From Pseudomonas fluorescens NCIMB 11764 (GTDB taxonomy: Bacteria; Pseudomonadota; Gammaproteobacteria; Pseudomonadales; Pseudomonadaceae), in contig NZ_CP010945.1 in assembly GCF_000293885.2 (NCBI RefSeq), forward strand, positions 62,001 through 126,000: a DNA stretch of 64,000 bases, given 5' to 3'. The position numbers and the translations under genes are program-made. Each line of letters opens with the position of its first letter. Position 1 is the first letter of the stretch. The notes under the pieces are model-generated. The model was not told the DNA's origin, did no database searches, and saw nothing but the letters and a program-made list of their open reading frames with translations. This document shows, piece after piece, positions 1-428 of the stretch.

Positions 1-378
1 ACTATCGGTTTGCTCGGTGCAGTCCTCGCTGGCGGCATGATGTTGACCGGCTCCGCTTTTGCTTCGCAGCCTTTGACTCAGGGCTACCTGCTGGCCTCGG
101 CCGAACAGGTGGTGAAAACCCCTGAAGGCAAATGTGGCGAAGGCAAGTGCGGCGATGCATCGATGGCAAAAACCGACACCGACGGTGACGGCAAGGTGTC
201 CCGCGCCGAATTCCAGAAAGTTGCGCCTAAGTCCAACTTCGACAAGATCGACACCAACCACGACGGCTTCATCGACGAGCAAGAGGCTTACGACAACGTC
301 AAAGCCAACTTCGAAGCCAACGGCAAGAAAATGCCAAAAGGCCTGTTTGAGCACTTGAAGGACCAGGACGGCGCTTAA
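1..378 (+). CDS. EF-hand protein with a doubled EGKCG motif (HvfA-like), 5' end outside the window
   Basis: The reading frame is open to the left edge, so the start and part of the leader are missing. The visible part begins in a hydrophobic signal-peptide-like stretch ending near ...GSAFAS, so the product is probably exported. Visible residues 42-51 (nt 124-153) read EGKCGEGKCG, two overlapping EGKCG repeats. Two canonical calcium-binding EF-hand loops follow: DTDGDGKVSRAE and DTNHDGFIDEQE, each with Asp at 1, Asp/Asn at 3, Asp at 5, Gly at 6 and Glu at 12. EGKCG is the modified core motif of HvfA-type precursor peptides, whose cysteines are converted by DUF692 (MNIO) enzymes. Inference: this is an EF-hand variant of such a precursor. 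The partner genes would lie upstream, outside the window. Any role in metal stress is unproven. Confidence 0.8.
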   Translation, partial: TIGLLGAVLAGGMMLTGSAFASQPLTQGYLLASAEQVVKTPEGKCGEGKCGDASMAKTDTDGDGKVSRAEFQKVAPKSNFDKIDTNHDGFIDEQEAYDNVKANFEANGKKMPKGLFEHLKDQDGA

Positions 379-387
379 GCCTCCCAG

Positions 388-428
388 AAAAAAAGCCGCG
401 TTTCTCGATCGAGAAACGCGGCTTTTTT
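388..428. terminator. Bidirectional intrinsic terminator
   Basis: An AT-flanked perfect hairpin (AAAGCCGCGTTTCTC / GAGAAACGCGGCTTT) has A-runs on one side and T-runs on the other. It can end both the EF-hand gene (plus strand) and the convergent chemoreceptor gene (minus strand). Confidence 0.9.

Follow-up and report, generated by a model that had tools for sequence, protein, structure and literature searches.

The gene at the left end of the analysed window, a stretch of 64 kb covering bases 62,001–126,000 of a 7.0-Mb single-contig Pseudomonas genome, encodes EfhP1, a protein of a type already described; what is new is the dispersed arrangement of the system's genes. With a probability of about 70%, EfhP1 is an EfhP-type precursor that is modified in trans by the enzyme pair HvfBC encoded at 3.887 Mb, exported, able to bind metal and calcium, and co-regulated with its enzymes by a BfmR-type regulator. 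This reading was drawn from gene content, sequence conservation, co-occurrence across genomes and a promoter element shared by the unlinked genes.

Structure of efhP1 and its product

The gene efhP1 was confirmed as real and covers positions 1..378 of the window on the forward strand, the stop codon ending at 378. Its ATG start codon (L002:9980) and the first seven codons (21 bases) are located to the left of window position 1, and the product comprises 132 amino acids in all. A putative Sec-type signal peptide with cleavage between AFA and S after residue 28 was recognized by eye, of which residues 8–28 are encoded at 1..63 (+). It is followed by a linker, the EGKCGEGKCG doublet at 124..153 (+) as the candidate HvfBC modification site, the seven residues DASMAKT, the first EF-hand calcium loop DTDGDGKVSRAE at 175..210 (+), a helix, the second calcium loop DTNHDGFIDEQE at 250..285 (+) and the C-terminus. 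The original prediction of a doublet followed by two canonical calcium loops is borne out by this layout. A terminator-like inverted repeat with a T run at 388..427 (+) was found by eye and is not listed by the sigma-70 scan.

EfhP1 matches Pfam EF-hand_5 twice (38.5 bits, cut-off 25.9) and passes the NCBIfam KCGExKCG domain model NF050137 (24.8, cut-off 19.5), and its score against the HvfA equivalog NF050188 (23.8 bits) is below the curated cut-off of 95. Two canonical EF loops together with EGKCG repeats are the features of EfhP, and a short EGKCG segment followed by two EF-hand_5 domains is the layout of Buf_EGKCG|EF-hand_5. The domain pair is that published class, for which PMC12452194 gives P. 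aeruginosa EfhP as example. The evidence agrees with the proposal that EfhP1 is a RiPP-type precursor combining calcium sites with a target site for a DUF692 enzyme, a class that has already been published (PMC12452194). In the named loci of P. migulae, P. mandelii and P. frederiksbergensis 38F7, EfhP1 is 97–99% identical, and the genome under study probably belongs to the P. fluorescens group.

Genomic neighbourhood of efhP1

Upstream of efhP1, a DUF1780 gene, a MOSC gene, a DUF3094 gene, a gene for a Pyr_redox_2 oxidoreductase, which by resemblance we take to be NDH-2, and an IS110 transposase gene are located in this order, and a chemoreceptor gene follows on the opposite strand. The DUF692, DUF2063 or DoxX genes that had been expected in the same operon do not adjoin efhP1. 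An unnoticed DUF692 operon beside efhP1 was likewise rejected: judged from the ORFs, none is contained in 10 kb of upstream or 9 kb of downstream sequence, and the only PF05114 match of the genome was found at 3.887 Mb. A MNIO gene beside the precursor, usual and not strictly required for the Buf_EGKCG|EF-hand_5 class, is accordingly missing here, as it is from the available flanks of all 18 named EfhP1-type loci (three with only ~0.2 kb downstream).

The order DUF1780-DUF3094-oxidoreductase-efhP1 was found in 17 of the 17 named EfhP1-type loci with an upstream flank (L010–L025, L052), a count from which L026 was left out due to its mere 399 upstream bases. Only in the genome under study is the IS110 element inserted between the oxidoreductase gene and efhP1. 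The transposase ORF (L002:8788-9750) ends 35 bases before the first box of the promoter element described below, so that this element was spared. The surroundings of efhP1 are the same as those described for P. fluorescens Pf0-1, where a homologue of EfhP is located beside DUF1780/DUF3094 genes without DUF692 ('group III' arrangement; PMC4053335).

The enzyme pair HvfBC and further EGKCG genes

By profile search, one PF05114 (DUF692/MNIO) enzyme was detected in the genome. It is of the HvfB type (NF003818, 419.9 bits, cut-off 360) and directly followed by an HvfC-family DUF2063 gene (NF050145, 261.3 bits, cut-off 142). A gene of the acetamidase/formamidase family (fmdA) precedes hvfB, and a two-component system with an OmpR-type regulator as well as a DUF2790 gene are located 2–5 kb downstream of hvfBC. 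The genome contains both the MNIO and the DUF2063 gene of the Buf_EGKCG|EF-hand_5 class, and equally the HvfB-type MNIO with PME1/HvfC partner of the captophorins, encoded in trans. A missing DUF692-type gene upstream of efhP1 had been proposed as refutation of the precursor hypothesis. There is indeed none upstream, but this is not decisive, because the only DUF692 enzyme and its DUF2063 partner are encoded at another locus that shares the promoter element.

Within the 14-kb stretch around hvfBC no EGKCG gene was found. In the whole genome, the doublet pattern was matched four times, and the matches fall into three genes: efhP1, an hvfA-like gene of 67 residues followed by DoxX/HvfX at 5.213 Mb, and efhP2 at 5.252 Mb, which encodes a second EF-hand protein with four EGKCG. 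None of the three adjoins hvfBC. In Pseudomonas sp. CFBP13508 and P. karstica (L049, L067), doxX, mnio, hvfC and efhP2 are located together, and in three genomes of the EfhP1 line (G053, G100, G328) an hvfA-like gene is located directly upstream of hvfB. These joined arrangements are most simply explained by an ancestral cluster that was later split up. At four further Pseudomonas loci (L072, L074, L075, L078), the precursors represent another layout of the class, with EGKCG motifs on both sides of the EF-hands, and the adjacent MNIOs are 79–81% identical to that of the genome under study.

A two-box promoter element shared by the unlinked genes

The alignment of the efhP1 upstream regions revealed two conserved blocks, and the element was defined as TGTRTC-N4-TGTATM and GAYACA-N5-GAYACA separated by a gap of 45/46 nt. 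In front of efhP1 it is located at L002:9786-9864, 116 to 194 bases before the ATG and left of the window; the 64-kb window itself contains no composite element. A sigma-70 scan found no promoter. One short search pattern used in the analysis proved to be near background.

For GAYACA-N5-GAYACA, six matches were found in the 7.0-Mb genome and one in the backwards control. Three of the six precede efhP1, hvfA and efhP2, in all cases with the inverted partner box TGTRTC-N4-TGTATM 45 or 46 bases ahead. The composite element, with up to 3 mismatches, was detected seven times at the 45-base gap, once at the 46-base gap and not at all backwards, and five of these eight matches precede efhP1, efhP2, hvfA, fmdA-hvfBC and hvfB. 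The sites of efhP1 (gap 46), hvfA and efhP2 (both gap 45) are free of mismatches, that of fmdA-hvfBC (gap 45) has one, and that of hvfB (gap 45) is degenerate with three. The other matches, all with a gap of 45, belong to a pair of a second bfmR-like gene and a DUF2790 gene (1 mismatch), to a Cys-free repeat protein with an HvfA-like signal peptide (1 mismatch) and to the upstream region of a cupin gene in opposite orientation (2 mismatches). A 44-base form with one mismatch is located between the first bfmR-like gene and its DUF2790 gene, the genome-wide scan having covered gaps of 45 and 46.

With the same tolerance of 3 mismatches, the element was found within 450 bases upstream in 18/18 named EfhP1-type loci, in 29/30 other Pseudomonas-type loci (one of them filed as Pantoea) and in 2/32 loci of other genera, nearly all of the latter having the enzyme next to the precursor. 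None of 1600 mononucleotide shuffles contained it. It is present somewhere in the stretch in all 30 whole-genome efhP1 loci, including that of the genome under study. For the 59 hvfB stretches of the EfhP1 lineage, 54 carry it within 450 bases upstream of hvfB (51 at 43–106 bases), four elsewhere only, and one not at all.

The upstream region of efhP1 has GATACA-type half-sites as in the BfmR regulon, and by sequence comparison the boxes match the published BfmR half-site. BfmR of P. aeruginosa is described to bind GATACAnnGC / TACAA-N3-GATACA and to activate efhP 11,268-fold (PMC8025907, PMC4148453). The OmpR-type regulator downstream of hvfBC (L003:12160-12897) is 84–96% identical to the regulators at 8 Pseudomonas loci with EGKCG and hvfBC genes and is a candidate orthologue of P. 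aeruginosa BfmR (PA4101).

The second bfmR-like gene (L208:1157-2456) is 90% identical to the copy near hvfBC and is accompanied by a DUF2790 gene with the element in between; the 3-kb stretch around it shows no intact gene for a kinase. The Cys-free protein (L209:1655-2041) consists of near-identical repeats behind its HvfA-like signal peptide, has no Pfam match and possibly belongs to the regulon as an uncharacterised member. The cupin gene downstream of a two-box element (L210:1002-1592, reverse strand) encodes a signal-like N-terminus. On a contig filed as Pantoea sp. Cy-639 (L027), a Pseudomonas-like efhP-hvfBC locus with the same element was found, either by transfer or in a misnamed genome.

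Conservation of the doublet

For the analysis of selection, 46 efhP1 loci were used. Of these, 30 came from the best-scoring of the 62 genomes with EfhP1, among them the genome under study, and 16 were named loci, some of which share a strain. The genes were located by their doublet, by which 0 of the 46 were lost, and 41 distinct coding sequences remained. Among these, none of the 10 doublet positions varies in amino acid, and silent changes are common (pS 0.49, pN 0). The pN/pS ratio is 0.000 for the doublet, 0.05 for each EF loop and 0.05–0.18 for the other segments. No other segment of EfhP1 is as constrained as the doublet. Two EGKCG copies are present in 38 of the sequences and three in 3.

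Co-occurrence of the doublet and HvfB in Pseudomonas

The survey comprised 398 Pseudomonas genomes, in which the doublet was searched as a DNA pattern for xGKCGxGKCG that finds adjacent doublets only. It was found in 172 genomes and, read backwards, in none, which is far above chance. A close relative of EfhP1 (at least 225 bits) is present in 62 of the genomes, own included, and some match at E ≤ 1e-3 in 174; contrary to the earlier view, the domain pair is not uncommon in the genus.

The presence of any MNIO, with PF05114 matches in 329 genomes, proved too unspecific as a test, and an HvfB-type protein was used as query instead. This query gave matches at E ≤ 1e-60 in 254 genomes, with sharply bimodal best scores (no exponent falls between 65 and 97). 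The high-scoring HvfB group consists of 173 genomes, and 81 genomes have low-scoring matches only, of which one (G011) carries the doublet. Doublet and HvfB occur together in 168 genomes, the doublet only in 4, HvfB only in 5 and neither in 221 (Fisher 1.9e-100, from counts that ignore shared descent). In all five genomes with HvfB only, hvfB is immediately preceded by an EGKCG-type gene that contains one to three GKCG.

HvfB is encoded in 59 of the 62 EfhP1 genomes. Just one doublet match was found in 27 of these 62, always on the strand of EfhP1, and those matches with listed positions fall inside EfhP1; 24 of these 27 have HvfB. An extra precursor with spaced or single motifs could still be present in the 27 genomes. 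The 59 hvfB stretches, which derive from 58 genomes with intact efhP1 and from G046, and some of which are cut by contig ends, all show hvfC adjacent to hvfB and contain an EGKCG gene in three cases. Including the genome under study, 57 of 60 stretches of the EfhP1 line have no EGKCG gene next to the enzyme pair. An ORF scan upstream of hvfB at 26 loci returned nothing for 10 and ORFs with two or more cysteines for 16. By eye, most of these resemble neighbouring genes read in antisense or with a shifted frame; the 27-residue ORFs in L155 and L156 may be a further Cys-containing precursor beside hvfB.

Two complete genomes, G183 and G233, encode an intact EfhP1 with the doublet and no full HvfB-type enzyme, and are real exceptions to the coincidence. 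In G183, what is left of hvfB is an N-terminal piece of about 55 residues immediately ahead of hvfC (L203, G183:C1:3948500-3952800), which looks as if most of the gene had been deleted. In G233, the HvfB query gives only weak matches of another class, and both genomes carry a MNIO of another class. G316 is 78% complete, with the C-terminus of hvfB at a contig edge and hvfC. In G011, HvfB is missing, HvfC gives only a weak match and efhP1 itself is broken; in G046, efhP1 is broken as well, and hvfB and another doublet are kept.

Proposed function and alternative explanations

The preferred model is that HvfB (DUF692/MNIO) and HvfC (DUF2063) probably convert both EGKCG cysteines of EfhP1 in the cytoplasm, in trans, before export. 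The product would be a thiol-bearing heterocycle as reported for EGKCG peptides, for which the newest report names a 5-thiooxazole (PMC12668002) and older work an oxazolone/thioamide. According to the same report, two EGKCG repeats are modified by FonBC and one repeat is not (PMC12668002), and binding of copper or a like metal has been reported for EGKCG peptides. After export, copper or another soft metal of this kind could be bound by the modified pair and calcium by the EF-hands, a calcium binding of 13.7 uM being reported for PA4107 (PMC9132961). The BfmR-type regulator near hvfBC would coordinate the supply of substrate and enzyme via the two-box element; with this element in front of all three precursor genes and hvfBC, one regulator may activate all parts. 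In the wider form of this model, which we hold at even odds, one HvfBC pair and three unlinked precursors form a dispersed captophorin regulon whose remaining tie is the BfmR-type element, and the EF-hand pair of proteins act as calcium-responsive metal buffers or sensors.

Points against the model are the two genomes G183 and G233 for modification in trans and, for co-regulation, the degenerate copy in front of hvfB (3 mismatches), though a copy with 1 mismatch precedes the adjacent fmdA, as well as the absence of the element upstream of 30/32 loci of other genera. The doublet left intact in G183 and G233 would also be expected if the EfhP1 cysteines stay unmodified, as free thiols or a disulfide acting for example as an iron or redox sensor beside the calcium loops, and an iron-sensing role of the EGKCG repeats has been suggested for P. 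aeruginosa EfhP (PMC11559002). This is unlikely, however, given an HvfB-type enzyme in 168/172 genomes with the doublet versus 5/226 without the pattern, the EGKCG-type gene upstream of hvfB in each of those five, and the retention of HvfB in 24/27 genomes in which EfhP1 provides the only doublet match.

A role of EfhP1 as a calcium-binding paralogue with a leftover doublet, only HvfA and EfhP2 being modified, agrees with the two other EGKCG genes of the genome and the conserved EF loops. It is rendered still less probable by the invariance of the doublet, more constrained than any other segment of the protein, and by the 27/62 EfhP1 genomes in which EfhP1 carries the only doublet match. Modification by another MNIO of the bufferin type, with HvfB co-occurring through shared descent only, is very improbable: PF05114 matches are widespread (329/398) and other-class MNIOs occur in G183 and G233, but the genome under study has exactly one MNIO, of the HvfB type, and among the 81 genomes on the low side of the bimodal HvfB scores only G011 has the doublet.

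Comparison with known systems

EfhP1 shares with the Buf_EGKCG|EF-hand_5 class, as described in PMC12452194, a short EGKCG segment that lacks 17-residue repeats, two EF-hand_5 domains at the C-terminus, and MNIO and DUF2063 genes in the genome. It differs in that the enzyme is unlinked and the parts are tied by the shared promoter element. Table 3 of that report lists Buf_EGKCG in 2583 genomes, 67 of them without MNIO, and modification from another locus is raised there as a possibility (PMC12452194). P. aeruginosa EfhP (PA4107) likewise has EGKCG repeats and two EF-hands and is predicted to be periplasmic (PMC4053335, PMC9132961, PMC11559002). It is a BfmR target, in line with the BfmR-type boxes at efhP1. 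It contains four EGKCG, as does EfhP2, and is encoded beside PA4106 (DUF692) and PA4105 (DUF2063), whereas EfhP1 contains two and its enzymes are unlinked.

EGKCG repeats and an HvfB-type MNIO with PME1 (DUF2063) are also common to the captophorins HvfA/oxazolin, fontiphorin and gonophorin (PMC12668002). Their precursors are clustered with the enzymes and their modification was shown experimentally, while EfhP1 is unlinked and a candidate substrate; the term 'EF-hand' is absent from the main text of that paper. With the BfmR regulon of P. aeruginosa, in which efhP-PA4106-PA4105 is a top target, the GATACA half-sites are shared (PMC8025907, PMC4148453). A fixed two-box arrangement with a 44–46 base gap in front of unlinked precursor and enzyme genes was not found in the available text of these two reports, nor was a link between BfmR and MNIO outside the P. 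aeruginosa operon, or a dispersed regulon, among the papers listed in searches of open-licence PMC.

The mining of RiPPs usually starts from an adjacent precursor and enzyme, and a large Pseudomonas lineage keeps both apart. The promoter element finds the scattered parts again, and the same search could assign orphan MNIO enzymes or precursors elsewhere. In EfhP, studied as a calcium sensor controlling iron uptake in P. aeruginosa, the cysteine segment probably forms a metal-binding site by modification, and calcium experiments with EfhP produced in the absence of HvfBC may overlook part of what the protein does.
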